From assembly GCA_021845665.1 (NCBI GenBank), contig JAJZVO010000004.1, forward strand, positions 62,001-126,000: a DNA stretch of 64,000 nt. Direction: 5' to 3'. Below are positions 14,323-62,868 of the stretch, in pieces. The notes beneath the pieces were generated by a model. The model was not told the origin of the DNA. It was given only the letters and a program-made list of their open reading frames with translations, and did no database searches. Each line of letters begins with the position of its first letter. Position 1 is the first letter of the stretch. Position numbers and translations under genes: made by a program. This DNA comes from Bacteroidota bacterium. GTDB taxonomy: Bacteria > Bacteroidota > Ignavibacteria > Kryptoniales > JAKASW01.

Positions 14323-15150
14323 TCAGTTCTCCCGGATAGTGTTCGCTTCGAAATCATTGCGGACCGGAAATGAGGTGCCTGAGAACACGGCACCGAACGT
14401 TTCCGAAAAACCATCCTTCAAAGCAGCGACCAAATCTTTCCGGTCCGCAGCGAAGCCGAGGATTTCACCAAGAGTCACCGTATGCGACTCAAGGTCAGCC
14501 GTAGTTTTCTCCCGCACCGCTTCATCGACATTCAAATATTGGACGATGCGCTTGTGAAATCCGCCCGTCAATATCGACCCATGCTGGAGGAGAGTATGAC
14601 CGAACCTATGCTGTGCGCTACCGACCAGTTTTTTCCCTTTGTGTTCAACCTCGAATACGGCGGACGTGGAGAAACAAGGGATAGCTCTCGGGTCGCGGAA
14701 GAGCTTCTGAAAATCTGCGGAGCTCTGCGACAGGTCGAGTTCGGCCCCGAGTTTCCTAAGTCCGACCACGAGAGCCGAGCTTATCCGGTTATAGGTCTCG
14801 CGGACCGATAACCCGTCGGTCTGCATGACTACGGAATAAGTGAGTTCCTCTGCGTGCAGGACAGCCTTCCCGCCCGTTGGACGCTTCACTATGTCAATTC
14901 CATCGCGGCGGGCATGTTCCACATCTATGTCAGATTCATTTTGATTTCTCCCCAGGGAGATACAGTAAGGTCTCCACCCGTATAATCGCAACATCGGGAT
15001 ACCGGTAATCCTGAACTCGTCCGCGAGGCTGAGGTCGAACTTCATATTGAACTCTCCGGAGTTGTCGCGGGTATCTACGAAGAACCACTCTTTTGAGGCA
15101 TGTTTCCGCGGAGAGTCCGCCGGTCGATCTAACCGCTCACCGGCAGCCAC
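14323..15150 (-). CDS. Lipoate-protein ligase A-like (BPL/LplA/LipB family)
   Basis: 275 residues. 'EWFFVDTRDNSGEFNMKFDLSLADEF' is the LplA/LipM-type N-terminus. 'ISLGRNQNESDIDVEHARRDGIDIVKRPTGGKAVLHAEELTYSVV' contains the RRxxGGxAVxH-like lipoyl-AMP-binding loop, and 'KKLVGSAQHRFGHTLLQHGSI' has the invariant catalytic lysine. It attaches lipoate or octanoate to carrier domains. The start is a GTG at 15150, 2 nt after the lpxA stop, with AGGAG 7 nt upstream; about 20 extra residues precede the conserved region. No separate LplA C-terminal accessory domain is present, so a LipM-type octanoyltransferase is equally possible. Confidence 0.82.
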   Translation of the reverse strand: MAAGERLDRPADSPRKHASKEWFFVDTRDNSGEFNMKFDLSLADEFRITGIPMLRLYGWRPYCISLGRNQNESDIDVEHARRDGIDIVKRPTGGKAVLHAEELTYSVVMQTDGLSVRETYNRISSALVVGLRKLGAELDLSQSSADFQKLFRDPRAIPCFSTSAVFEVEHKGKKLVGSAQHRFGHTLLQHGSILTGGFHKRIVQYLNVDEAVREKTTADLESHTVTLGEILGFAADRKDLVAALKDGFSETFGAVFSGTSFPVRNDFEANTIREN

Positions 15151-27300: not shown

Positions 27301-28326
27301 TCAGCCTATGGCAATCATCCGCTCGACAGCCTTCGCGGCCCTGACCCTTATCTGTTCCGGGACTTCGATGACATATTGAGTCTTTCGCAGTGCATCGAGG
27401 GTATCTTCGAGTGTAATCTGGTTCATATGCGGACATCGGATGGTGCAAAGCCTGAGCATCTCCTTATCCGGATTCGCGGCGGCTACGTTGTCGCCCATGG
27501 AGCATTCCGTCAGCAGCAGATACCTGGGGGATTTCGACTCGCGCACGAAGCGTTCCATGGCCGTCGTGCTTCCCGAAAAATCGGAGGCTTCGACGACCTC
27601 CGGGCTGCACTCCGGGTGGGCAAGAACTACGACGTCGGGGAATTGCTTGCGGACATTTGATATGTCTTCTACCGTAAATCGTTCGTGTACCTCGCATCGG
27701 CCCTGCCATCCGATAATCTGGAAAGGCTTTTCAAGTTCGGCCGCATCTTTCCTCGGAAAAACGATCTTCTTCCCGGTTTCAGCGGCCACGTTACTTGCGA
27801 GATATTCATCGGGAAGAAAGATAACGACGTCGCTGTCAAGCGATCTGACTACTGCGGCAGCGTTGCCAGAAGTGCAGCAGATATCAGATTCCGCCTTGAC
27901 GTCCGCATAGGTGTTGACATAAGTGACGACCGGAGCGCCGGGGAACTGAGCCCTGAGATTCCGCACATCTTCCGCGGTGACGCTCGCAGCAAGTGAACAC
28001 CCCGCCTTCTCGGCCGGAAGGAGGACGGTCTTTTCGGGATTGAGTATTTTCGCTGTCTCGGCCATGAAGCGCACGCCACAGAATATGATTATGTCCTTGT
28101 CGGTCTGAGCGGCCTTTCTGGACAGTTCGAGAGAATCGCCGACAAAATCGGGAATCGAGTAGTATAGGGCGGGCTCCATATAGTTATGGCCGAGAATCAC
28201 GGCGTTGCGCTCGGCCTTGAGTCTGTTGATCTCGTAGGCGATCTCGGACTTTATCCTAAGCTCAGGCTCAGGGACAACGTCTCTCAATCTATTTTTCAGA
28301 TTCGAATAAATTTCCTGAACAGTCAT
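27301..28326 (-). CDS. nadA: Quinolinate synthase
   Basis: 341 residues. It condenses iminoaspartate with dihydroxyacetone phosphate to quinolinate using a labile 4Fe-4S cluster. The motifs are 'NAVILGHNYMEPALYYSIPDFVGDSLELS', 'GVRFMAETAKILNPEKTVLLPAEKAGCSLAASV' (first cluster Cys), 'YVNTYADVKAESDICCTSGNAA' (second) and 'CTIRCPHMNQITLEDTLDAL' near the C-terminus (third). 'HPECSPEVVEASDFSGSTTAM' is also conserved. It starts 13 nt after nadC, in the same operon. Confidence 0.97.
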   Translation of the reverse strand: MTVQEIYSNLKNRLRDVVPEPELRIKSEIAYEINRLKAERNAVILGHNYMEPALYYSIPDFVGDSLELSRKAAQTDKDIIIFCGVRFMAETAKILNPEKTVLLPAEKAGCSLAASVTAEDVRNLRAQFPGAPVVTYVNTYADVKAESDICCTSGNAAAVVRSLDSDVVIFLPDEYLASNVAAETGKKIVFPRKDAAELEKPFQIIGWQGRCEVHERFTVEDISNVRKQFPDVVVLAHPECSPEVVEASDFSGSTTAMERFVRESKSPRYLLLTECSMGDNVAAANPDKEMLRLCTIRCPHMNQITLEDTLDALRKTQYVIEVPEQIRVRAAKAVERMIAIG

Positions 28327-28339
28327 CGTAAACCCTCAA

Positions 28340-29176
28340 TCATTTATCGTTATCTATCATCAAACTTATGTCCATCGCGGTTACTGAATGTGTCAATGCG
28401 CCGACAGAAATATAGTCGACGCCGGTCGCCGCAACCGCCGCGACTCTCCTAAGAGTCATGTTTCCGGAAGCTTCCAGCGACACGCGGCCCGCTGAGATCT
28501 TAACGGCCTTCCTCATCGTATTGGTATCCATGTTGTCGAGTAAAACGCGATCGACATCGAGCTGAAGCACTTCCCTCAGCTCATCCAGAGTTCTAGCTTC
28601 GACTTCAATTTGGATTCCTGCGGGCGCATTGGCTCTTGCGCGGCGAACCGCCTCGGTTATTCCGCGCGCCTCGGCGATGTGATTATCCTTTATAAGAATC
28701 ATGTCGTACAAACCTATCCGGTGGTTGGAAGCTCCGCCGATTCTTACGGCCATCTTGTCGAGCACTCTCAGGCCCGGTGCGGTCTTTCTCGTATCGAGTA
28801 TCACCGCCTTCGTGCCGGCCGCGGCCTCGACGAATCGTCTGGCGGCTGTCGCGATCCCGGACATTCGCTGAAAGAAATTCAATGCCACACGCTCGCCCGC
28901 AAGTATCGCCTTGCCCGGGCCGCTTACACTACCTATGACTTCTCCTGGTTTTACATCGGCGCCGTCCGACACGGATTGGATTACTTTCACCCGGTCGTCG
29001 ATGAACCTGAAGGTTGCCTTGACCACATCCCAGCCGGCTACCGTCCCGCTCGATTTGGCAATGAACCGTCCGTTGGCCTGCAATTCCTGAGACACAATCG
29101 AGTTAGTGGTAACGTCCCCCGGTCCGATATCTTCGGCGAGCGCTCGCTTTACGATCTCTTCAATCTCTTTATTCAT
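28340..29176 (-). CDS. nadC: Nicotinate-nucleotide pyrophosphorylase (carboxylating)
   Basis: 278 residues. 'IVKRALAEDIGPGDVTTNSIV' is the family start, 'GERVALNFFQRMSGIATAARRFVEAA' and 'ILDTRKTAPGLRVLDKMAVRIGGASNHRIGLYDMILIKDNHI' line the quinolinate site, and 'IEVEARTLDELREVL...VLLDNM' and 'EASGNMTLRRVAAVAATGVDYISVGALTHS' complete the barrel. It converts quinolinate plus PRPP to nicotinate mononucleotide. The track ORF has 41 extra N-terminal residues; the ATG at 29176 (MNKEIEEIVKRAL) gives the family start. It is first in the NAD operon. Confidence 0.96.
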   Translation of the reverse strand: MNKEIEEIVKRALAEDIGPGDVTTNSIVSQELQANGRFIAKSSGTVAGWDVVKATFRFIDDRVKVIQSVSDGADVKPGEVIGSVSGPGKAILAGERVALNFFQRMSGIATAARRFVEAAAGTKAVILDTRKTAPGLRVLDKMAVRIGGASNHRIGLYDMILIKDNHIAEARGITEAVRRARANAPAGIQIEVEARTLDELREVLQLDVDRVLLDNMDTNTMRKAVKISAGRVSLEASGNMTLRRVAAVAATGVDYISVGALTHSVTAMDISLMIDNDK

Positions 29177-29348
29177 CAAATATCTTGAATATTCGCTATT
29201 TAGGTGGATGTTAACAGGATAGATACAATCACACCCGGCAGAAAGAATGTAATCAAAGCCCGGGTTAAACTGCAATCTACCGTTACCGGTCGGGTCCATA
29301 ATTCACGGGAACCGACTGTGCCCCGTCAGTGTTGCAAAAGTCAAGGAA

Positions 29349-29433: not shown

Positions 29434-31269
29434 ATGAGAAGAACAATAATGGTATTTCTGCTCTTAGCGTCCGCATTTCTTACCAGGGAAGCTTCGGCCC
29501 AGGTGTTCTTCACCGCCAGTCTTGGACCGGGACCATCTGTAGTTTCAAACGGGACCGGAACGGCGTGGGCTGTGCTGAACATGGCACAGAAGTCACTCAC
29601 CTTCAGAATCACGTACGCTAAGCTAGACAGCACATTCACACACGCACATTTTCATCTCGGTGCGGCAGGGACGAACGGGCCGGTAGTATTTCCGCTCGAT
29701 GCATTCTTTGTCGGGAACACCGCGGAGGGTACATGGAACAACATACCGGACTCCCTGATTTCCGCCCTCATGAAAGGCGACATTTATATAAATATTCACA
29801 CGCTAAAATATCCGGCGGGTGAAATTCGCGGCCAGTTAGAGGCCTCTCCCGACATCGGAATCTCAATGAGCCTTGACGGCTCGCAGGATGTTCAGCCTCT
29901 ACCGGTAGGGGGAACGGGAACCGGGTGGGCGATTTTCAATCCTGATTCCAATGTTCTTTACTACCGCGTGACTGTCGCCGGTCTAACATCGGGTATAACG
30001 GGATCCCATTTCCACCTCGGCCCTGCGGGGACTAACGGACCTGTCGTATTTCCATTCGCCATGACCGACAGCACCGCGACCGGCTATTGGGCCTTCCCGG
30101 ATTCGATGTGGGCAGATCTCGTGTCTAACCAGTTATATGTGAACATACACACGCAGAAAAACCCTGCTGGCGAAATAAGGGGACAATTCACTTTGGAACC
30201 GACTTCGAATATTTTCCTTTCAGCTTCCCTGGACGGAGCGAACCAGGTACCGGCAGTGACTTCGAACGGAGCGGGCACGGCATGGGTAATTCTCAACGTT
30301 ACTCCGTCAGCCACCGACTCTTACGGGAACGTCACACCCGGCTCGGGCTCGCTCACATACAGGCTGACGTACGCCGACCTGGACAGCACCTTTACCGCAG
30401 CACATTTCCATCAAGGTGCACCCGGTACTAATGGTCCTGTAGTCATGCCGATCACAACATTCTCGGGCAACTCCGCCCAGGGCACCTGGTCGAACATACC
30501 CGACAGTCTAGTCGACGCAATGCTGAGCGGGGATATCTACCTGAATGTTCATTCAGCTGCTCATCCTGCCGGAGAGTTGCGCGGTCAACTCGAAAGACCG
30601 GACGGCGTTCCGTTTTCGATCAGCCTCTCGAGTAATCAAAGCGTGCCGGCTCTCTCCACCACAGGTACCGGCACGGGCTGGGCGGTGCTCGACACCACCG
30701 GCACGAACGTCAGCTACGACATAACAGTTGCGACGCTATCCTCAAACATAATCGCAGTCCACTTCCACGACGGCGCCTCGGGTGTGAACGGGCCGGTGGT
30801 CGAGCCGCTTTCATATACCATGATCGGTGCGAGCGGCATATGGACCCCGGTGCCCGATAGTCTCATTCCGACGCTACTCAGCGGTGATATTTACTCGAAC
30901 TTCCATTCTTCCGATCACCCGACGGGAGAGATACGCGGTCAGCTCCTCCTTGACAACGGCTCGCTGCTGACAGCCATCGTCCAGACAAAGGACCCTGTCC
31001 CGAACACGTTCCGGTTGAGCCAGAATTACCCCAACCCGTTCAACCCATCGACGATAATTCAGTATAGCGTCCCGGCGAAGTCCCAGGTGAAACTCATCGT
31101 GTACAACATACTCGGCGAGAAAGTGACTACTCTTGTCGACGCGGTCGAAAGTCCCGGAACCCACGAAGTCATCTTCAACGGAAACCGGCTTGCCAGCGGG
31201 GTCTATTTCTACAGGTTATCCGCAAACGGGAATACATTCCTGACGAAGAAAATGGTTCTGCTGAAATAA
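29434..31269 (+). CDS. Secreted four-CHRD-domain protein with T9SS sorting tail
   Basis: 611 residues. The signal peptide ends 'REASAQ'. Four tandem CHRD domains of about 120 residues follow, each with the pattern 'GTGTAWAVLN...HFHLGAAGTNGPVVFPL...GDIYINIHTLKYPAGEIRGQL'; repeats 1-4 end near residues 147, 252, 389 and 510. The C-terminal ~85 residues 'YPNPFNPSTIIQYSVP...LASGVYFYRLSAN...KMVLLK' are a type IX secretion sorting domain, so the product is exported and probably surface-anchored. CHRD domains are named after chordin; their bacterial function is not known. A very strong GGAGGAG site precedes the ATG, and a terminator follows. Confidence 0.92.
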   Translation: MRRTIMVFLLLASAFLTREASAQVFFTASLGPGPSVVSNGTGTAWAVLNMAQKSLTFRITYAKLDSTFTHAHFHLGAAGTNGPVVFPLDAFFVGNTAEGTWNNIPDSLISALMKGDIYINIHTLKYPAGEIRGQLEASPDIGISMSLDGSQDVQPLPVGGTGTGWAIFNPDSNVLYYRVTVAGLTSGITGSHFHLGPAGTNGPVVFPFAMTDSTATGYWAFPDSMWADLVSNQLYVNIHTQKNPAGEIRGQFTLEPTSNIFLSASLDGANQVPAVTSNGAGTAWVILNVTPSATDSYGNVTPGSGSLTYRLTYADLDSTFTAAHFHQGAPGTNGPVVMPITTFSGNSAQGTWSNIPDSLVDAMLSGDIYLNVHSAAHPAGELRGQLERPDGVPFSISLSSNQSVPALSTTGTGTGWAVLDTTGTNVSYDITVATLSSNIIAVHFHDGASGVNGPVVEPLSYTMIGASGIWTPVPDSLIPTLLSGDIYSNFHSSDHPTGEIRGQLLLDNGSLLTAIVQTKDPVPNTFRLSQNYPNPFNPSTIIQYSVPAKSQVKLIVYNILGEKVTTLVDAVESPGTHEVIFNGNRLASGVYFYRLSANGNTFLTKKMVLLK

Positions 31270-32457: not shown

Positions 32458-33009
32458 TCAGTTGTTGCTCAGCTTTGACAACAATTGCCCCGAGCAAGTC
32501 GAACAGAACCTGTCGGTCTTGACGTCGATTTCCTCGACTCCGGTGGATGAGTGCATGACACACAGGTAATTGCCGCAATGGAGCAGACCGAACGCATGAC
32601 CCAGCTCGTGCACCGATTCCTTAACGAGACGAAGATTCAGCAGATTCGCATCGGGGGCGAGTCCGTAGAATTCATCGCGGAGCCGGTGAGAGGAGACTAC
32701 CGCCACCTTTCCGTCGAGCTGAGCTTCGCCGAAAACATAGGTGAGCACAGGGACGAACAGATCACCTGAAGTCACGCCGAGAATCCTTCCGTCGAAGTCT
32801 TCGAATTTTTCAAGCAACGACGTGATGAGGGCCGTAGAGGAGTATTGGTTCCTGGACAGATTGAACGCGAAGGATCCGTCGAGCGGCAAGGCTCGGGTAA
32901 CCTCGACACGGCATCGAAAAGCGGAGGTAAGTGGCTTCACGAGAGGTGGAAGGGGCGTGCGGTCGACGGGATTGATCGCGACGATGAGGATCGAAGAGGT
33001 GCTCGCCAT
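32458..33009 (-). CDS. Archaemetzincin-family zinc protease
   Basis: 183 residues. The full archaemetzincin metal pattern is present: HELGH at 134-138, GLLHC at 141-145, then C150, M152, and a C-x2-C at 169-172, fitting HExxHxxGxxHC-x4-C-x-M-x16/17-C-x2-C. One catalytic zinc (three His) and one structural zinc (Cys) are expected. There is no signal peptide, so it should be cytosolic. Known relatives are small aminopeptidase-like enzymes of poorly defined substrate. It starts 18 nt after the sigma-54 regulator gene and is the distal gene of the redox/two-component cluster. Confidence 0.9.
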   Translation of the reverse strand: MASTSSILIVAINPVDRTPLPPLVKPLTSAFRCRVEVTRALPLDGSFAFNLSRNQYSSTALITSLLEKFEDFDGRILGVTSGDLFVPVLTYVFGEAQLDGKVAVVSSHRLRDEFYGLAPDANLLNLRLVKESVHELGHAFGLLHCGNYLCVMHSSTGVEEIDVKTDRFCSTCSGQLLSKLSNN

Positions 33010-33027: not shown

Positions 33028-34398
33028 TTAAGCCTGAGGCTTTTTCAATCCGTATTTCGAGATCTTGCTGTAGAGAGTTACGCGATCGATTCCAAGCGCC
33101 TCCGCACTGCGGGTGATGTTCCAGTTGTGCTTTGCCAGGACCTTCGCGATGTGGATCTTCTCCATGCTCGTGATAAGATCGTCCTGCTGCTCTACCGCCT
33201 CATGAGGTTGTGAAAGCTGGAAAGGAAGATCGCCGGTGTTAATGGCGGGCGGCTTAGCCAGTACCATGGCACGCTCGATTACGTTCTCCAGTTCGCGGAT
33301 ATTGCCAGGCCACCTGTTACGGATTAGAAGGTCCATCGCCTCAGGAGCTATCCCTACTGTCTGTTTGTTCATGAGGGTTGCATACTTCTGAACGAAATGA
33401 TCGACGAGCGGCGGGATATCAACGCGTCTTTCCCTTAAAGGAGGGATGAAGATAGTAAACACATTGAGCCTGTAATACAGGTCCTCACGAAAGCTGCCGT
33501 CGCCTATCGCCGCTTCGAGGTCGCGGTTGGTAGCACAAATCACGCGGAAATCGCTGGAGATCATCTCGTTGCCCCCGACCCGTGTAAACTGTTTAGTTTC
33601 CAGCACGCGGAGGAGCTGCACCTGCATCTTCTGGCTGATGGTGCCGATCTCATCGAGGAAGATCGTCCCGCCGTCGGCCATTTCAAACTTGCCCTTCCGC
33701 CTGAACTGCGCGCCGGTGAAGGCTCCTTTCTCATGCCCGAAGAGCTCGCTCTCAAGAAGGGTCTCAGGCACGGCTCCGCAATTTACCGTGATTATCGGGA
33801 AATATTTTCTGGCCGAGTTGGCGTGAATGGTCCTCGCGACAAGTTCCTTGCCGGTTCCGCTTTCACCTCTGATCATTACCGTTGTGTCGGTCTGTGCGAC
33901 TGTCTTCGCGAGGTCGATCACCTTCTGCATTTGTGAGCTCTCGCCGACGATTTCCTCGACGCCGGACAACTCAGACATCTGCTGGCGAAGCCGCCAGTTT
34001 TCATCGGTCAATTTTTTCGTTCTCAGCGCATTCTGGACAAGATGAGAGAGATGTTCCGGATCGACAGGTTTCGTGACGTAATCGAAAGCACCTTCCTTCA
34101 ATGCTTGGACGGCGCTGTCGACAGCCGCGAAAGCAGTAATCATGATCACGCAGGCACTCTTGTCGATTTCCATGATTCTTTTCTGAAGCTCCAGACCATC
34201 CATGCCCGGCATCTTGATGTCGAGCAGAATCACGTCCCAAGGTCCGTCGCTCATGAGCGTCAACGCCTTATTGGCGTTTTCGGCGGACCCCACCTTGAAG
34301 CCGTCCTCCCTGAACCACTTGCTCAGCGAATCGCGGACCGAAAGCTCGTCATCGACGATCAGGATGCTCGATTGAGAGATCTTCTCACTGTTTGCCAT
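33028..34398 (-). CDS. Sigma-54-dependent response regulator (NtrC type)
   Basis: 456 residues in three parts. There is a receiver domain ('ILIVDDE...DVILLDIKMPGMDG', phospho-acceptor D60). The central AAA+ domain has Walker A 'GESGTGKE' and the sigma-54-contact loop 'GAFTGA', plus 'GGTIFLDEIGTISQKMQVQLLRVLE'. The C-terminal Fis-type helix-turn-helix is 'NWNITRSAEALGIDRVTLYSKISKYGLKK'. All parts are intact, so it should activate RpoN-dependent promoters from upstream enhancer sites. It follows the heme-motif kinase gene by 9 nt, its probable partner. The palindromes at 40152-40265 are the candidate binding sites. Confidence 0.96.
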   Translation of the reverse strand: MANSEKISQSSILIVDDELSVRDSLSKWFREDGFKVGSAENANKALTLMSDGPWDVILLDIKMPGMDGLELQKRIMEIDKSACVIMITAFAAVDSAVQALKEGAFDYVTKPVDPEHLSHLVQNALRTKKLTDENWRLRQQMSELSGVEEIVGESSQMQKVIDLAKTVAQTDTTVMIRGESGTGKELVARTIHANSARKYFPIITVNCGAVPETLLESELFGHEKGAFTGAQFRRKGKFEMADGGTIFLDEIGTISQKMQVQLLRVLETKQFTRVGGNEMISSDFRVICATNRDLEAAIGDGSFREDLYYRLNVFTIFIPPLRERRVDIPPLVDHFVQKYATLMNKQTVGIAPEAMDLLIRNRWPGNIRELENVIERAMVLAKPPAINTGDLPFQLSQPHEAVEQQDDLITSMEKIHIAKVLAKHNWNITRSAEALGIDRVTLYSKISKYGLKKPQA

Positions 34399-34407
34399 AT
34401 TCGTTTC

Positions 34408-36036
34408 TCAATTCTTCTTAACATTCGCCAATATTGTTCCCCCGGCCTTTTGCGGGTTCACCGGCAGCAAAATAGTGACCGTTGTCCCGGCGCCAGGTCT
34501 GGAGTCCACTTCAATTCTCCCGTTATGCCGCTCGATGATCCCGTGGACGACGGCGAGTCCGAGACCTGTCCCTTTTCCGTCTTTCTTCGTCGTGAAGAAT
34601 GGCTCAAAAATGTGTTCGAGATCCTCGTCGTTTATCCCGATGCCGTTGTCGATCACTTTAATCTCGATCTCGTTTTGACTCACGAGTTTTTTCATCGTAA
34701 TTCTCAGCGTGCCACCGTCCGGCATCGCTTCAATGGCATTGATTTCGAGTGCTATCAACGCCTGCTCGATTTGCTGAGGGTCGCATATCGTTTCCACCGG
34801 AGTTTCCGGGACATCGACTTCCGGCATGACATTGTTCATGGCCAGATGATGCGAGATCAGCTTAAGACTTTGATGTATGACAGGGCCCAGATTCTGAAGC
34901 TGGAATTCACCTATCTTCTGCCTCGAGAAGAGGAGGAGGTTATTGACGATGTTGCCGCATCTCGTGCTCTCGTCGGCAATCATTGTCAACTCGTCGCCTA
35001 TGCCTTTAATGCCCTCCTCGGTCAGGTCTCCCTTCGCGAGCTGTTTCTTAAGCAACTTGGCGTACGCAAGGATGCCGGCAAGGGGATTGTTCAACTCGTG
35101 CGCGACGCTGGCCGCCAGTTTCCCCAAAGAAGCCATCTTCTCCATCTGTACCATGTTGGACAGAGCCCTGCGGAGTTCATCGGTCTTTTGTTCCACACGC
35201 TCTTCGAGGGTTTGAGTCCACTCGGTAAGCTCATCCCTCGCCCTGCCGAGTTCTTCGGTCATCTTGTTGAACGAATCGGCCAGATCGCCGATCTCATCAG
35301 ACGAACGCACTCTGATCCTGTGATCCAGGTTCCCTTTTGTTATCTCGCGAGTTCCTTCGGTCAGTTTCCTCACCGGGATATTGACCATCGTCCAGATGAA
35401 GATTCCAGCAAATATCGTGACACTCAGCACCATAAGCGCTCCGCCGAAATACGAATACTGTCTAAGCTGTACAAGGCTGGCATCCATAGCTTTGAGCGGC
35501 AGCATGACGTCGAGGACGCCGAGCACCGTCTGATTGGCCGGATGTTCATGGCACGCCGCCTTATAGCAGCTCGGTTCGTTTTTAATCGGAGTAATTACAC
35601 CTAACACGCGGTAGCCCTTCGGAGAATAGAAAATCCTTGTCAAGGCCGTATTTCCGTTTGTCGGCAGCGCCTTCCCGGGCTTGTGGCACGCATTGCATGC
35701 TTCGGCGTTCATATTGACATACTTGCCGACTTCGCTCGCCACGGTGGAATAAGTTATCTCGCCTTTTTTGTTGTAGATACGGATAGCCTGTATCCCGGGC
35801 TCTGATCCGAGCGTATTGATCGTCCGGTAAATGTCTTCCCTTCGGTTTTCGAGCATGCTGTAGTGTGTCGATCTTTTGATCAGATCGCTTGTACGGAGAG
35901 CCCAGTCGGTTGTAATGCTCAGATACTTTTCGGTATGCCAGTTCAACATGACGGCCGTGAAAATCGCCGTAGCAATGATCATGACAAGAAGCACGATCAC
36001 GAATAATCGAAATGCCAGGTATCTGGTTATGCGCAT
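34408..36036 (-). CDS. Membrane histidine kinase with two c-type heme motifs
   Basis: 542 residues. TM1 is at about 8-30, the periplasmic sensor at 31-195, TM2 at 196-218 ('YFGGALMVLSVTIFAGIFIWTMV'), then a HAMP domain ('PVRKLTEGTREITKGNLDHRI'), a HisKA domain with 'SLGKLAASVAHELNNPLAGI', and a HATPase with 'DNGIGI' and 'KGTGLGLAVVHGIIERHNG'. The sensor carries CNACH (114-118, CxxCH) and CYKAACH (157-163, Cx4CH), both recognised forms of covalent heme c attachment site. It probably reads the redox state or a gas ligand in the periplasm and phosphorylates the adjacent NtrC-type regulator. It lies in the same run as the HybAB/GcvH-like genes. Confidence 0.93.
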   Translation of the reverse strand: MRITRYLAFRLFVIVLLVMIIATAIFTAVMLNWHTEKYLSITTDWALRTSDLIKRSTHYSMLENRREDIYRTINTLGSEPGIQAIRIYNKKGEITYSTVASEVGKYVNMNAEACNACHKPGKALPTNGNTALTRIFYSPKGYRVLGVITPIKNEPSCYKAACHEHPANQTVLGVLDVMLPLKAMDASLVQLRQYSYFGGALMVLSVTIFAGIFIWTMVNIPVRKLTEGTREITKGNLDHRIRVRSSDEIGDLADSFNKMTEELGRARDELTEWTQTLEERVEQKTDELRRALSNMVQMEKMASLGKLAASVAHELNNPLAGILAYAKLLKKQLAKGDLTEEGIKGIGDELTMIADESTRCGNIVNNLLLFSRQKIGEFQLQNLGPVIHQSLKLISHHLAMNNVMPEVDVPETPVETICDPQQIEQALIALEINAIEAMPDGGTLRITMKKLVSQNEIEIKVIDNGIGINDEDLEHIFEPFFTTKKDGKGTGLGLAVVHGIIERHNGRIEVDSRPGAGTTVTILLPVNPQKAGGTILANVKKN

Positions 36037-36217: not shown

Positions 36218-37033
36218 CTACTTCCGGCCTGCGAAGAGGATTTCGAGGAAAGAGACATATCTTGAAGTTCCCAGAAGGTCCTTCAAATTGTGGGGACGGA
36301 TACCGCCATCCATCAATGTCACGCCGAGAGAAGGCAGCCGGGCATCGAATTCCATGATGAGCTGCTGTTTCAACCCCGTGAACTGTTCTTTGGAACTGGA
36401 CTCTATCGTTGATGCATCGACACTTGTTGCCGGGCTCTCATCGAAACAGGATATCTCACTGAACCAACCGGCTCCGTAAGGATCCCTTCTGACAATCACG
36501 ATAGATTCCATAACTTCCGGGTTCACACGCTTGATCTTTCCGTCCAGAGGCGATTTCACGGCGATGGTACCTTCTTCGCATGTCATCCAGGCGCATGGAT
36601 TATCTTTGAGTGTTGAGGTTCCGGACTTAGGCAGCACGATGGTTCCCACTCCCTCAAGGAGACCGGCGGCAAAATGGTCTATACCGATCTGGTAAGTGTT
36701 TAGCGCCGTCTTCTTCAACCATACGTGACCCTGCGTATACATCCTGTCTGAGGGAGGCTTGATAGACAAGGGGCCGCCGAAAACACCCCTGATGACATCG
36801 AGCATGGAGTCTTGTTTGACTCGCGATTTCGGACCGGTGACATCTGAGGCGGGCTTACCGGTGCGGGTAGCAGAGGCGGGGATCGATTTCTGCCGCATTA
36901 CCTGATCGAAGGGACAATCATCGCATTCAAAATTCCGGTCGCACAGTTTATACGAAACAAGGCCGGCATCGACCCAGATGCAATTAAGTTCGCCTTCCGG
37001 TATCACTTTGCTTATTGTCTTCTTTTCTTCCAT
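36218..37033 (-). CDS. Cytosolic GcvH-like protein with Cys cluster, no lipoyl lysine
   Basis: 271 residues. The N-terminal part has four cysteines in 'CIW...YKLCDRNFECDDCPFDQVM' (C18, C31, C37, C40), a likely metal or cluster site. From about 95 on it has the H-protein fold signature: 'YTQGHVWLKKTALNTYQIGIDHFAAGLLEGVGTIVLP', then 'TCEEGTIAVKSPLDGKIKRVNPEV' and 'RRDPYGAGWFSEI'. In true GcvH the lipoylated Lys lies in ESVKA, eight residues before the 'P' of 'APVSG'; here that position is Glu. The tail contains GVTLMDGG, shared with the GcvH-like gene upstream in this cluster. I infer a structural or electron-transfer role in the HybAB-type complex rather than glycine cleavage. Confidence 0.8.
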   Translation of the reverse strand: MEEKKTISKVIPEGELNCIWVDAGLVSYKLCDRNFECDDCPFDQVMRQKSIPASATRTGKPASDVTGPKSRVKQDSMLDVIRGVFGGPLSIKPPSDRMYTQGHVWLKKTALNTYQIGIDHFAAGLLEGVGTIVLPKSGTSTLKDNPCAWMTCEEGTIAVKSPLDGKIKRVNPEVMESIVIVRRDPYGAGWFSEISCFDESPATSVDASTIESSSKEQFTGLKQQLIMEFDARLPSLGVTLMDGGIRPHNLKDLLGTSRYVSFLEILFAGRK

Positions 37034-37058
37034 GTCACACCCGCCTCTGCTGAGTTGA

Positions 37059-38300
37059 CTATTTTGCCTGCATGCCGAAGGACGGCTCGCCTCTTAGCGG
37101 GGCATCGTCTTCAATGACCACGACTTCGAAGCTTTCGCCCCGGGCAGGCTCGTTCGCCGCCACACTCTCGGGAAAGACTGCAAGGTTTTTCGCGGCCCAG
37201 GCAAAAGCCCCGAAGCCGAAAGCGACTATCATAAGAGTTACCGAGATTTCCATCCAGCTTGGGAAGTAGGCTACGCCGTAATGTCTTTCCAGCGAAGTCA
37301 CGCTGACGTTCATCCTGTTAAGAACGAATCCCATCACTGCAAAGAGAGCAGCATAGTACAAACCGCGTTTGTTGTTCCTGATCCTGGGGATCACAAGCAT
37401 CGTAATCGGGATGACGACTCCGATCATGATCTCTGCCCAGAAGAGTATCCCTTCCGTATTGAAGGTAAAGAGATAAGAGAAGAGGTGATAGTTTATCATA
37501 TCTTCGATCCTAAGGACGAGATACACTGCGAGTGCCACTGCCGTGACCTTACCAAGCTTCGACAATATCGGCATTTCAATTTCCCGGTGGAATGCGCGCG
37601 AGCTGAGAAACGATTCCATTATTACCATGGCCGGTCCGACAGCCACCGCCGAGATGAAGAAAAGGAACGGGAGGTTTCCGGTATACCATAAAGGGTAGAC
37701 TTTCTCCGGCATGACGAGGTACAACGACCCGAGGGACGACTGGTGAAGAGAGGAGAGCATGACGCCGAGAATCACGAGTGGAACGATCATCTTGTGAACC
37801 ACTTCAGCGGCTTTATGAAGATGGAACCGCTCAAAGACCATGGGGCTGAATTCAAAAGCAAGGACCGTTGTGTAGAGCATGACACACCACGCGAGCTCGA
37901 ACATGGGGGAATGTGGATTCCACATGACGAGCGGGTGCCAGATGTTCCACGGCCTTCCGAGATCGAACATAAGTGCGAACACAACAAGCACGTAGCCGAG
38001 GAACGCTGTCAATACTGCAGGCCTGACGATCGGCTTGTAATAGTCCAGATGGAAGACATACACGGCGCCGGCCACAACGAACCCACCGGCGGCCAGACCG
38101 ACACCGCAAAGGACGTCGAATCCGATCCATATTCCCCATGGGAACTTGTCGCTCAAGTTAGTTGCTGCCCCCAGGCCATAGACGAAGCGGACGTAAGTGG
38201 AATACAAACCGGCCACGACAAGCACAAGGAGCACAGACTTCCAAAAAGTCATATGCCTGAACCAATACACTATTTTCGATAGAACTCCGTTATTCAGCAT
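37059..38300 (-). CDS. NrfD/HybB-type integral membrane quinone-interacting subunit
   Basis: 413 residues with about ten membrane helices. 'VYGLGAATNLSDKFPWGIWIGFDVLCGVGLAAGGFVVAGAVYVF' and 'FALMFDLGRPWNIWHPLVMWNPHSPMFELAWCVMLY' are hallmarks of the HybB/NrfD family, which passes electrons between a ferredoxin subunit and the quinone pool. The track start is 17 codons early; the ATG at 38300 follows GGAGGA by 4 nt and overlaps the ferredoxin gene end by 11 nt. No catalytic molybdopterin or hydrogenase large subunit is encoded nearby, so the electron donor or acceptor is unknown. Confidence 0.93.
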   Translation of the reverse strand: MLNNGVLSKIVYWFRHMTFWKSVLLVLVVAGLYSTYVRFVYGLGAATNLSDKFPWGIWIGFDVLCGVGLAAGGFVVAGAVYVFHLDYYKPIVRPAVLTAFLGYVLVVFALMFDLGRPWNIWHPLVMWNPHSPMFELAWCVMLYTTVLAFEFSPMVFERFHLHKAAEVVHKMIVPLVILGVMLSSLHQSSLGSLYLVMPEKVYPLWYTGNLPFLFFISAVAVGPAMVIMESFLSSRAFHREIEMPILSKLGKVTAVALAVYLVLRIEDMINYHLFSYLFTFNTEGILFWAEIMIGVVIPITMLVIPRIRNNKRGLYYAALFAVMGFVLNRMNVSVTSLERHYGVAYFPSWMEISVTLMIVAFGFGAFAWAAKNLAVFPESVAANEPARGESFEVVVIEDDAPLRGEPSFGMQAK

Positions 38301-39096
38301 CGTTTCCTCCACTCGTCTGCTCTTTGATTTCCAGTTCGGCGGGTTCTGCATTCCCGCGCTTCAATTGTTCTTCGTACTCTGCTACTTTCTTCTTCCGGTT
38401 GGTAAGCCACCAGAAGCCCGCCATCAAAGTACTCCCCCAGACGAAATAGTCCGGGATCTTCTCCATAATGTCCCAGGTATACTTGGGCAGCGCCCTCTTC
38501 GGCAGGTTTGTTGGAAAACCGAGTTTACCGAAGTCCTCGCCGGCCAGATAGATAGTTGAAGTGCCGCCGACTTCAGTAGTCCCGAATATATGCTGGATAT
38601 ACGTCCCGGGGTTGTTCTTAATTCGTTTCTTTGCTTCTTCGATCAGATCATCGCGGAATCCGAATATTCTGGCCTGTGCCGGACACACCTCGACGCAGGC
38701 GGGCTGTTTTCCCTTCAGCTGGCGCGGGTAGCACATGTCGCACTTCGTGACTTTCGGAGCAGGCTTATTCCATTGGTACTTCGGTATCTGGAACGGGCAG
38801 GCCTGCACGCAGTATCGGCATCCCATGCATTTGTCTACATCGTAAACGACGGGCCCGGCGGCGGTCTTGTGAATTGCTCCAACCGGGCAGACCGATGCGC
38901 AAGTGGGATCCTCGCAGTGCATGCAGAGCCGTGCGACATAAGTCTGTCCGTATTGCTGAACGACGGTATTCTTTTCACACGACAGCTCGTGCACATCCGT
39001 ATGAGGGAACCCCCATCTATCGGCGCACGCATCCTCACAGGCCATGCATCCGATACACTGCGTCGTGTCTACTAAAATTCCTACCTGCTTTTTCAT
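38290..39096 (-). CDS. Four-cluster ferredoxin subunit (HybA/DmsB-like)
   Basis: 268 residues. The cysteine runs 'CIGCMACEDAC', 'CMHCEDPTCASVCPVG', 'CMGCRYCVQACPF' and 'CDMC...CVEVCP' give ligands for four 4Fe-4S clusters. A C-terminal membrane helix ('YFVWGSTLMAGFWWL') anchors it, as in HybA, followed by a charged tail. There is no twin-arginine signal, so the clusters probably face the cytosol, unlike HybA. It should hand electrons to the overlapping NrfD/HybB subunit. Confidence 0.93.
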   Translation of the reverse strand: MKKQVGILVDTTQCIGCMACEDACADRWGFPHTDVHELSCEKNTVVQQYGQTYVARLCMHCEDPTCASVCPVGAIHKTAAGPVVYDVDKCMGCRYCVQACPFQIPKYQWNKPAPKVTKCDMCYPRQLKGKQPACVEVCPAQARIFGFRDDLIEEAKKRIKNNPGTYIQHIFGTTEVGGTSTIYLAGEDFGKLGFPTNLPKRALPKYTWDIMEKIPDYFVWGSTLMAGFWWLTNRKKKVAEYEEQLKRGNAEPAELEIKEQTSGGNDAE

Positions 39097-39122
39097 CTCG
39101 ATTGTCCTTTTGCTGTTAACGA

Positions 39123-39839
39123 CTACGAATTAGCTGATTTCTTCCCGTTTCCTGCGGTCAGGAAATCCGTCTCGAACCTTTGCCAGATTTCCTGCGGAGA
39201 GTGTTCCATGACGTCGTTAACCGGCGCGCCTCCATCCATTAGAGTAACACCTGCAGGCAACGCGGAGCCGGATGCTGCGGGCACTTCCGTCTGGGCGGTA
39301 ATGAAATTTCTGAATCTCTTGATCTCTTCCCTGAGCCACAATGCTGCCTCATTACCGATGGACAGCTGCTTAATATCGGCCGCCAGATTTGTCGGCTCGA
39401 TCAACAGGACCCAACCTTCTTTGTAAGGCTCTTTCCTCACGACACCTGGCGAGTGTACCAGATCGTCGTTGATACCGACAACTTTACCAGAGATGGGGGC
39501 ACGAAACGACACTTCTTTTCCTCCCTGACGAAGAGTAAAGAGTCTATCTCCCTTTTGAACGACGGTGTTCGCAGGAAGGAGCTCGACCGCGCTGACGGGG
39601 CCGATAATCTTCTGGACGAAATCGTCGACGCCGACGCGCGTCAGCCCATCCGGAAGGAGCTCGACCCATGTGTGTCCCTTTCCGAAAAAGTATCCTTTGG
39701 GGATTACGAACCTCGGCTTTGCAGAAACGTGGGCGGCAGGAGCAAGTGCTGCCTTACGTTTCGCAGCCCGTTGCACGAAATAATCGATGACCAAAAAGAC
39801 GATTATCGTCGCGACTACGAATAACGCAACCATTTTCAA
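39123..39839 (-). CDS. Membrane-anchored GcvH-like protein, first gene of the redox cluster
   Basis: 238 residues. An N-terminal membrane helix ('VALFVVATIIVFLVIDYFV') precedes an H-protein-like domain: 'FFGKGHTWVELLPDGLTRVGVDDFVQKIIGPVSAVELLP', 'RQGGKEVSFRAPISGKVVGIND' and 'RKEPYKEGWVLLIEPTNL'. The ESVKA lipoyl site is absent; a Lys lies one position off in 'RQGGKEV', so lipoylation is doubtful. 'GVTLMDGG' near the C-terminus is repeated in the second GcvH-like protein of the cluster. It starts right after an AGGAGG site and leads the operon. Confidence 0.82.
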   Translation of the reverse strand: MKMVALFVVATIIVFLVIDYFVQRAAKRKAALAPAAHVSAKPRFVIPKGYFFGKGHTWVELLPDGLTRVGVDDFVQKIIGPVSAVELLPANTVVQKGDRLFTLRQGGKEVSFRAPISGKVVGINDDLVHSPGVVRKEPYKEGWVLLIEPTNLAADIKQLSIGNEAALWLREEIKRFRNFITAQTEVPAASGSALPAGVTLMDGGAPVNDVMEHSPQEIWQRFETDFLTAGNGKKSANS

Positions 39840-39930
39840 CCTCCTAAGATTTTGCTGTAGTATTCAGATCCATTCGAGCGGAAGACATTCACAGAAGTTT
39901 GCGGAGACCTGCCGGATTTCGTGCTTGAAA

Positions 39931-56399: not shown

Positions 56400-57160
56400 T
56401 TCATCCCTCCTGTGCCCGGTCCGCTAATTTCAGAAATAGTTATTTCCCCCGCAGTGAACTTCAGCACTCCGGATGAAGTGGCGATGGAAATGGCCCCATC
56501 GTCGGTGACTTCATCCAAAGTGCCTTCGAATTCCCTTCCGGCTACATTGAATTTGATCCTCTTTCCAAACATGAATGATCTGTCTCTCCATCTTTTCATG
56601 ATCGAATAGAAATCTTTTGATTTCAAAGACTGATAATTTTCGTTGAACCTAAAGAGAATGGAAGAGAGAACTTCTTCACGGTCGAAACTGCGTCCGGCGA
56701 TCATCGAAAGCGACACTGCGCTTGCCGTTATTTCTTCCGGGAATACGGTCTGATTCACATTTAGCCCGACACCGAGAACGACATAATTCAGTTTGTCGCC
56801 CTCAAAATTCGATTCGAGCAATATTCCGCACAACTTTTTTCCACGAAAGAGAATATCGTTCGGCCATTTCAACTCACTTTGGATGCGGGTGACATTCTCG
56901 ATGGCATCGGCAACCGCGACTGCGGCCGAAAATGTCAATATGAACACTTCGTCCCTGGGCAAGAATGCCGGACGCAAGAGAATTGAGAAGAGGAGACTCG
57001 AGAGGGGTTCGGCTTGCCACTTCCTGCCAAACCGCCCGCGCCCCGATGTTTGTTCATCCGCGACTGCAACTGTCCCTTCGGGAAAGCCTTTTTCCCCCAG
57101 CTTGAGGAGATAGCTGTTTGTCGAGTCGATTTTTCCGAATCGGTATATATCGTAATTCAA
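56396..57160 (-). CDS. birA: Biotin-[acetyl-CoA-carboxylase] ligase
   Basis: 254 residues. 'IYRFGKIDSTNSYLLKLGEKGFPEGTVAVADEQTSGRGRFGRKWQAEP' holds the GRGRxGRxW biotinyl-AMP loop; 'QSELKWPNDILFRGKKLCGILLES' carries the catalytic Lys; 'VVLGVGLNVNQ' follows; 'AGREFEGTLDEVTDDGAISIATSSGVLKFTAGEI' is the C-terminal SH3-like domain. There is no N-terminal helix-turn-helix, so it is a ligase without repressor function. Confidence 0.95.
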   Translation of the reverse strand: MNYDIYRFGKIDSTNSYLLKLGEKGFPEGTVAVADEQTSGRGRFGRKWQAEPLSSLLFSILLRPAFLPRDEVFILTFSAAVAVADAIENVTRIQSELKWPNDILFRGKKLCGILLESNFEGDKLNYVVLGVGLNVNQTVFPEEITASAVSLSMIAGRSFDREEVLSSILFRFNENYQSLKSKDFYSIMKRWRDRSFMFGKRIKFNVAGREFEGTLDEVTDDGAISIATSSGVLKFTAGEITISEISGPGTGGMK

Positions 57161-61968: not shown

Positions 61969-62868
61969 TTACTCCAGCATTTCCGGTTTAACTTTAATTA
62001 CTTCAATTTGGTTCTCTTTGTATAGAGCAGCTTCTCCGGCGTAAAAGATAAGCTTGGAGAAAATTCTAAGCAAAACAAATATCTGGCCGGCCACGATTTC
62101 GAGAAGAATCCCATTTAGATTTTCTGTGCGTATGTTGGAGTCAAGGTAAAACCAGCCCGTGATCACGGCGGCACTGAAGATAGATGCACCTCCGTAAACG
62201 CCTGTCGATGAAAGAGGATGCTTTATAACAAATGAGAGACCGCGCACCACTTTGGCGGTCATCGTCTCGTCATCAATCGCAACGGCAGCGCGCACGAAAT
62301 CCGCCACCAAATTCACGATGAAGAAGATTAGCGCGACGGCGGCGTAGCGCCAAAGCTCCGCATGAAAAACCTGGTAATCGGTAAGGGCCTTCCGAGCCGC
62401 TTCCTTGTTTGCCGCGGCCCAGATTGCATTGAACTCATACAGAAGAAAGAGCAGTATCACCTCAGCGAGCGTTATAAGGAGAATCGGAAAGAACTTCGAT
62501 GCGCCCTGCGAAATAAATGTGGCCGACTTCACCTTCCCTTCTGCCGCGAAGGAAGTGAAGAATCCGCCGGCAAAAAACGCCTCTACTAATATAAAGATGG
62601 CGAAGAGGAGCATCACTTGCGGAATGAGCAAGTTGAAATATGCGCCGTTCGCGTGAATGAACTCAACATACCACCGGTAGCTAAATCCCGAAAGAAGAGA
62701 GGAGCTTACCAGGCTTCTCGAAACGTTTTTCATGAAGACTGTTGCGAACGGGAGAGCCAACACCGCTGCGAAAATGAAATCCAGTGCATAGAGAACAAAC
62801 GCGAGCCTCCAGTTTTTCAGCGCTCTTCCGGTTCCCAGAAATAGGGCTTTGGGTGCACCTATATTCAA
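61969..62868 (-). CDS. Integral membrane protein of unknown function
   Basis: About 299 residues with six predicted membrane helices (for example 'LAFVLYALDFIFAAVLALPF', 'LLIPQVMLLFAIFILVEAFFAGGFF', 'FFPILLITLAEVILLFLLYEF', 'AAVALIFFIVNLVADFVRAA', 'SIFSAAVITGWFYLD'). I do not recognise a family function. The track start at 62928 gives a 64-nt overlap with the upstream gene; I prefer the TTG at 62868, whose TTGA overlaps that stop and which gives the common 'NIGAPKALFLGTGRALKNWRLAF' start. It is translationally coupled to the M1-like gene. Confidence 0.7.
   Translation of the reverse strand: MNIGAPKALFLGTGRALKNWRLAFVLYALDFIFAAVLALPFATVFMKNVSRSLVSSSLLSGFSYRWYVEFIHANGAYFNLLIPQVMLLFAIFILVEAFFAGGFFTSFAAEGKVKSATFISQGASKFFPILLITLAEVILLFLLYEFNAIWAAANKEAARKALTDYQVFHAELWRYAAVALIFFIVNLVADFVRAAVAIDDETMTAKVVRGLSFVIKHPLSSTGVYGGASIFSAAVITGWFYLDSNIRTENLNGILLEIVAGQIFVLLRIFSKLIFYAGEAALYKENQIEVIKVKPEMLE

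Follow-up and report, generated by a model that had tools for sequence, protein, structure and literature searches.

The 64,000-nucleotide stretch of Ignavibacteria DNA analysed here, referred to below as the window (positions 62,001 to 126,000 of contig JAJZVO010000004.1), encodes two relatives of the lipoate-carrying H-protein GcvH, which we call A and B. Both lack the lipoyl lysine, and both belong to a module of seven genes that further includes a 4Fe-4S (FeS) subunit, an NrfD-type membrane subunit, a heme-c sensor histidine kinase (HK), an NtrC-type response regulator (RR) and an archaemetzincin protease. The membership of A and B in this conserved module is well supported, as is, on the alignments, the loss of lipoate carriage throughout both families. 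Fold, lysine loss, synteny, fusions to receiver domains and the co-occurrence of a C-terminal DGG tail with the protease were all computed directly. With a probability of about 0.5, we propose that A and B are non-lipoylated cytoplasmic adaptors that couple heme-redox signalling to an Hmc-like complex, and whose tails are processed by the archaemetzincin. Literature searches that paired GcvH with any of NrfD, HmcB, a histidine kinase, a response regulator and archaemetzincin returned nothing relevant, none of the papers in the collection searched deals with this combination of parts, and the seven-gene module appears to be undescribed so far.

Fold of the GcvH-like pair and the lipoyl-lysine site

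The genes run in the order A-FeS-NrfD-B-heme HK-NtrC-archaemetzincin and continue beyond position 36218, where an earlier note on this DNA, made from the letters alone, had ended. The features of the module are as follows.

39123..39833, reverse strand: GcvH-like protein A, 236 aa, with an N-terminal transmembrane (TM) anchor, H-protein fold, helix and DGG tail (open reading frame, ribosome-binding site, GCV_H, AF2/Foldseek)
39228..39251, reverse strand: tail motif GVTLMDGG of A, in the linker leading to the last helix, which is modelled at low confidence (block pLDDT ~57-77 for the motif)
38290..39096, reverse strand: HmcB/HybA-like 4Fe-4S subunit, no Tat signal (NCBIfam HmcB 7.5e-69; N-termini of close relatives)
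37059..38300, reverse strand: HmcC/NrfD-like membrane subunit; the longest open reading frame begins at 38351, the probable start is 38300 (PF03916 9.7e-24; HmcC 5.2e-99)
36218..37033, reverse strand: GcvH-like protein B, 271 aa, with an N-terminal Cys4 motif, H-protein fold and DGG tail (GCV_H, AF2/Foldseek)
36914..36982, reverse strand: C-x12-C-x5-C-x2-C (Cys4) motif of B (C18, C31, C37, C40), found in 58/59 homologues
36302..36325, reverse strand: GVTLMDGG tail motif of B, in a low-confidence linker of the AF2 model
34408..36036, reverse strand: sensor histidine kinase with two TM helices, periplasmic CxxCH and Cx4CH heme-c motifs, and HAMP (Pfam; motifs)
33028..34398, reverse strand: NtrC-type sigma-54 response regulator, REC-AAA-HTH (Pfam; position near B in relatives)
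32458..33009, reverse strand: archaemetzincin, peptidase M54, active-site motif HELGHAFGLLHC (PF07998 3.2e-23)

The open reading frame of A is listed as 39123-39839 from a TTG, with an alternative ATG at 39833; the extent 39123-39833 is most likely, because an AGGAGG (~39844-39849) lies ~6 nt before that ATG.

The earlier note had described both proteins as GcvH-like, and the profile and structure comparisons agree. Both score above the cut-off of Pfam GCV_H (A 8.7e-20, B 2.9e-14), and their AlphaFold models (mean pLDDT 88.4 for A and 84.7 for B) match solved H-proteins in Foldseek with target-normalised TM-scores of up to 0.95 and 0.89, respectively. With GcvH (PF01597/TIGR00527) they share the fold, the GHxW start, the SP-x-x-G hairpin and the PY-x-x-GW end, and the structural H-protein residues H54, W56, G68, P113, G116 and W141 are invariant in A homologues. 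They differ from it in the missing lipoyl lysine, in additions at both ends (a TM segment or Cys4 motif in front, the DGG tail behind), and in falling below the NCBIfam gcvH equivalog cut-off of 115.85 bits (A 56.5, B 51.5). A separate, canonical GcvH is encoded on another contig of the same genome (C17), and A and B do not adjoin gcv genes.

Where E. coli has its lipoyl lysine, the alignment places a G in window A and an E in window B. Among non-redundant homologues (70 of A and 59 of B), a lysine occupies this column in seven A proteins, scattered and with no ESVK context, and in no B protein; the column holds mostly G/N/D in A and W/E/D/G in B. The absence of the canonical lysine claimed in the earlier note is thus family-wide. 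We also searched the homologue alignment for what that note had named as contrary evidence, a lysine conserved at a shifted loop position, and found no conserved lysine anywhere in the carrier hairpin; a displaced conserved lysine was accordingly rejected. The best conserved lysines sit elsewhere, at position 75 of A (54%) and at position 29 of B, inside the Cys motif (73%). The expression E[ASGT][VIMT]K[AST] matched no B protein and a single A protein, in a helix outside the hairpin; it recovered 12/12 canonical GcvH sequences, a weak control because most of these had been chosen via an E.VK motif. No LplA/LipB gene was found within the module; both LplA/LipB-family genes of the genome fall in the window, at ~14563-14943 and 56759-57130, ~17 kb to either side of the cluster.

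One protein anchored in the membrane and the other bearing a four-Cys cluster were likewise read correctly from the sequence. Window A has a single N-terminal TM helix, as do most members of its family, and since positive charge is concentrated after this helix (52/63 A proteins, by hydropathy and charge only), the GcvH domain of A is probably cytoplasmic. By hydropathy only, 55/59 B proteins have no TM segment, and the Cys4 site of B is a probable, predicted metal-binding site. A profile-profile alignment of A against B spans the whole domain and the tail (99.9%, E 2.8e-36). Because it continues through the tail, the GVTLMDGG ending that had been noticed in both proteins is homologous rather than a chance resemblance.

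A conserved module with receiver-domain fusions

We scanned GTDB genomes with the B family as query and its Cys motif as seed, which gave 51 loci; because of this seed, the locus counts cover B-bearing loci only. About nine phyla are represented, and the named hits are nearly all metagenome-assembled genomes (MAGs). The record titles name Bacteroidetes/Ignavibacteria, Acidobacteria, Planctomycetota, Myxococcales, Gemmatimonadetes, KSB1, Wallbacteria, Deltaproteobacteria, Aminicenantes (with no clear B) and a few others. Of the loci, 31 have 6.5 kb on either side of B; in these, A was found in 29, FeS in 28, NrfD in 29, the HK in 29, the RR in 29 and the archaemetzincin in 20, and all six partners occurred together in 20. 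The commonest order has FeS-NrfD flanked by A and B. The earlier suggestion of a family that left lipoate carrying and became linked to a HybA/NrfD-type pair holds across phyla.

The window's redox pair is of HybA/NrfD type and closer to HmcB/HmcC. It resembles the quinone-linked complexes of the Hmc/NrfD type (HmcBC, HybAB, Melioribacter NrfCD) in joining FeS with NrfD and having no Moco subunit, and in the 4- to 18-heme cytochromes of some module loci. It differs in that both subunits miss the HmcB and HmcC equivalog cut-offs of 420 and 550 bits (FeS 232, NrfD 332), and in that FeS of the window lineage has no Tat signal; nor do the descriptions of those complexes include GcvH-like partners. 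No multiheme HmcA-type cytochrome was found among the neighbouring open reading frames of the window cluster; cytochromes with 12-18 hemes occur only in other phyla and in loci with receiver fusions. In Planctomycetota loci such a cytochrome follows NrfD and the protease is often absent. N-termini indicate a Tat signal on FeS in many loci, above all in Planctomycetota, and for this reason it is doubtful that FeS is a direct GcvH partner in all lineages.

The heme-c motifs of the HK, at residues 114 and 157, are found in relatives too. The periplasmic CxxCH between two TM helices recalls Mcp40H-20-like heme-c sensor domains (PF21563), from which the HK differs by its second motif, Cx4CH, and by a PF21563 match below the cut-off. 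The window archaemetzincin has the HExxH catalytic site and the Cys motif. The full motif of known M54 enzymes, HExxHxxGxxHCx4CxM...CxxC (PMC3427221, PMC4681839), is present in 63/70 relatives, and the four others inspected still have HExxH. Unlike known archaemetzincins, the module enzyme shares its operon with both a two-component system and its own candidate substrates.

In seven loci (L068, L104 and L109-L113) both GcvH partners are fused to receiver (REC) domains, one in the form TM-REC-GcvH and the other as REC-GcvH. In all of these except L068 the fusions come directly after a run of FeS, NrfD, a 13-heme cytochrome and a heme HK. The receiver residues D12, D13, D57, T87 and K109, which include the phospho-acceptor Asp, are intact in 14/14 fusions. 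A tree was built from 147 GcvH domains on 125 columns, with many deep forks unresolved; in it the TM-REC-GcvH group nests inside the window-A clade with support 96/82, and the REC-GcvH group lies near canonical GcvH with weaker support.

Relatives also carry a paralogous type of locus, extended by a molybdopterin oxidoreductase and a 5-heme cytochrome. The window's own genome has a second, apparently decayed GcvH-like locus on contig C23 (L006 7627-10114), with a Cys-rich GcvH protein, a partial GcvH with a stop in frame, its own heme HK, an archaemetzincin and an NtrC regulator; its counterpart in relatives includes a molybdopterin oxidoreductase, FeS and NrfD. Downstream of the module, the window holds adjacent, same-strand NadA-like and NadC-like genes (27301-29299, by eye). 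At 29434-31269 it encodes a secreted repeat protein that looks CHRD-like by eye and whose C-terminus carries a sorting signal (QNYPNPFNPST) in the style of type IX secretion. Searches of the 64-kb window for Rfam families and tRNAs found none.

The DGG tail and the archaemetzincin

DGG is present in 62/70 A and 51/59 B homologues, in most members 24-27 residues from the C-terminus in the linker before the final helix. Its occurrence follows the protease. All 65 A/B proteins of scan loci with an archaemetzincin have it, and 13/32 in loci without the protease do not. In a set of 37 loci flanked by 5 kb on each side, DGG is present in all 20 that have the protease, and the 17 without it comprise 10 DGG-less, 3 mixed (one of them, L098, with no DGG within the tail proper) and 4 with DGG. 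Whole-genome searches found M54 elsewhere in 7/8 DGG genomes that have no nearby copy, and the five distant copies inspected all lie beside the same RR family; no M54 was found in genomes carrying only DGG-less forms. In general, 66/70 of the archaemetzincins found adjoin this RR family. L090 has DGG outside its usual context and no M54, and genome G031 has both module types together with M54.

In L068 the protease-linked A and B have DGG and the REC-fused pair does not. In L104, from a genome without M54, B reads VGTALNDRSE; the matching stretch of B in L105, where the protease is present, is VGTTLYDGGE, so that DRS replaces DGG. A survey of 80 genomes of the class found DGG-type GcvH together with M54 in 38, GcvH only in 1, M54 only in 2 and neither in 39 (p ~6e-19, with kinship and MAG gaps ignored, and with the DGG-less state of G045 and G089 taken from open reading frame size). 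These patterns suggest that the GVTLMDGG tail is a candidate target of the module's archaemetzincin. A second archaemetzincin type, outside the module and with no NtrC neighbour, is present in one family of relatives (L120, L121, L148).

Proposed mechanism and competing explanations

In the mechanism that we propose, electrons would be moved by the quinone-linked, Hmc-like FeS/NrfD complex, and the periplasmic redox state would be read by the heme-c histidine kinase, whose phosphorylation output would go to the NtrC regulator and, in relatives, also to the receiver domains fused to the GcvH partners. A, held at the membrane, and B, with its Cys4 site, would relay the redox state to NrfD or to the kinase, in either case at its cytoplasmic face. 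The exposed GxTLxDGG tails may be cut by the archaemetzincin, and the adaptors thereby tuned or matured. Heme sensing, phosphotransfer, contact with NrfD and cleavage at DGG are the steps that we infer. Several observations weigh against this proposal. Window A and B themselves have no REC domain, and the fusions are a derived state. Matches to a sigma-54 (-24/-12) promoter on which the NtrC regulator could act are at chance level, with none convincing upstream of A. L105 has A-B-HK-RR-protease with no FeS/NrfD nearby and L075 has B-A-FeS-NrfD followed by a 13-heme cytochrome with no HK/RR nearby, so that no single partner is obligatory. L103 (genome G100) has DGG in both proteins with no M54 found in 4.1 Mb, and since DGG loss covers only about three lineages, shared history could explain the link between DGG and M54.

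A first rival extends the reading of the earlier note: A and B would serve the structure or assembly of the FeS/NrfD complex, the tail would be a docking surface that both share, and neither protein would signal by itself; the HK and RR would then set expression only. An assembly role is possible, and it fits the frequency of FeS and NrfD near B, the membrane anchor of A, the Cys4 site of B, which might take part in handling Fe-S or metal, and weak matches to the barrel-sandwich domains of NqrA_N and RnfC, which offer a fold precedent in redox complexes. As the whole account, however, we consider it unlikely, given the REC fusions of both partners, the way DGG follows the protease, the Tat export of FeS in many loci as against the cytoplasmic look of A and B, and L105. 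The heme HK, NtrC, archaemetzincin, REC fusions and DGG-protease link make signalling or control, and processing of the tails, no less likely than assembly. At the opposite extreme, A and B would serve the heme two-component system as signalling adaptors only and would never touch the redox complex, which would be just a regulated target. This view draws on the REC-GcvH fusions and on L105; it seems less likely again, since L075 keeps the pair with the redox complex, L107 (A-FeS-NrfD-B) has no RR nearby, and A and B flank FeS-NrfD in the commonest order.

If A and B were still carriers, a displaced residue would have to hold the lipoate or some other group, for example the K one residue past the aligned site in window A, or C147 or C152 near the hairpin in window B. 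These residues are not conserved (one past the site, A has R in 31 and K in 19 of 70, and B has G in 41/59), and the module lacks the ligase genes seen in the LbpA loci of PMC6067878; we regard carriage as very improbable. The strongest challenge concerns the tail, which may be a docking motif only, the archaemetzincin being lost alongside by shared ancestry. The few lineages of DGG loss and the state of L103 favour this explanation, whereas the unbroken presence of DGG in protease loci, the contrast within L068 and the change of GG alone in L104 B, whose tail is otherwise conserved, speak against it; we put docking alone at slightly worse than even odds.

The closest precedents are LbpA and the Melioribacter NrfCD pair. 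LbpA, of sHdr sulfur oxidation, is likewise related to GcvH and was recruited to a redox complex; its loci often hold two copies, and it has a strictly conserved lysine and hdr-like and lplA-like neighbour genes (PMC6067878); A and B have no such lysine, and their module no such neighbours. The Melioribacter pair was reported without mention of GcvH neighbours (PMC3534657). For archaemetzincins, neither PMC3427221 nor PMC4681839 reports a natural substrate, and the structural study found the enzyme inactive on many substrates tried and described its biological importance as little known (PMC3427221).

More tentatively, and with somewhat more doubt than belief, we suggest that the H-protein-fold proteins without the lysine make up a new class of signalling adaptors: phosphorylation-controlled outputs of a heme-redox two-component system that would act on a respiratory complex, with GxTLxDGG tails as the natural substrate of the archaemetzincin. 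If this is true, a lipoate-carrier fold would have been turned into a signalling adaptor through which two-component phosphorylation acts on a respiratory complex, and the tail would offer a concrete substrate motif for a protease family that has no known substrate.

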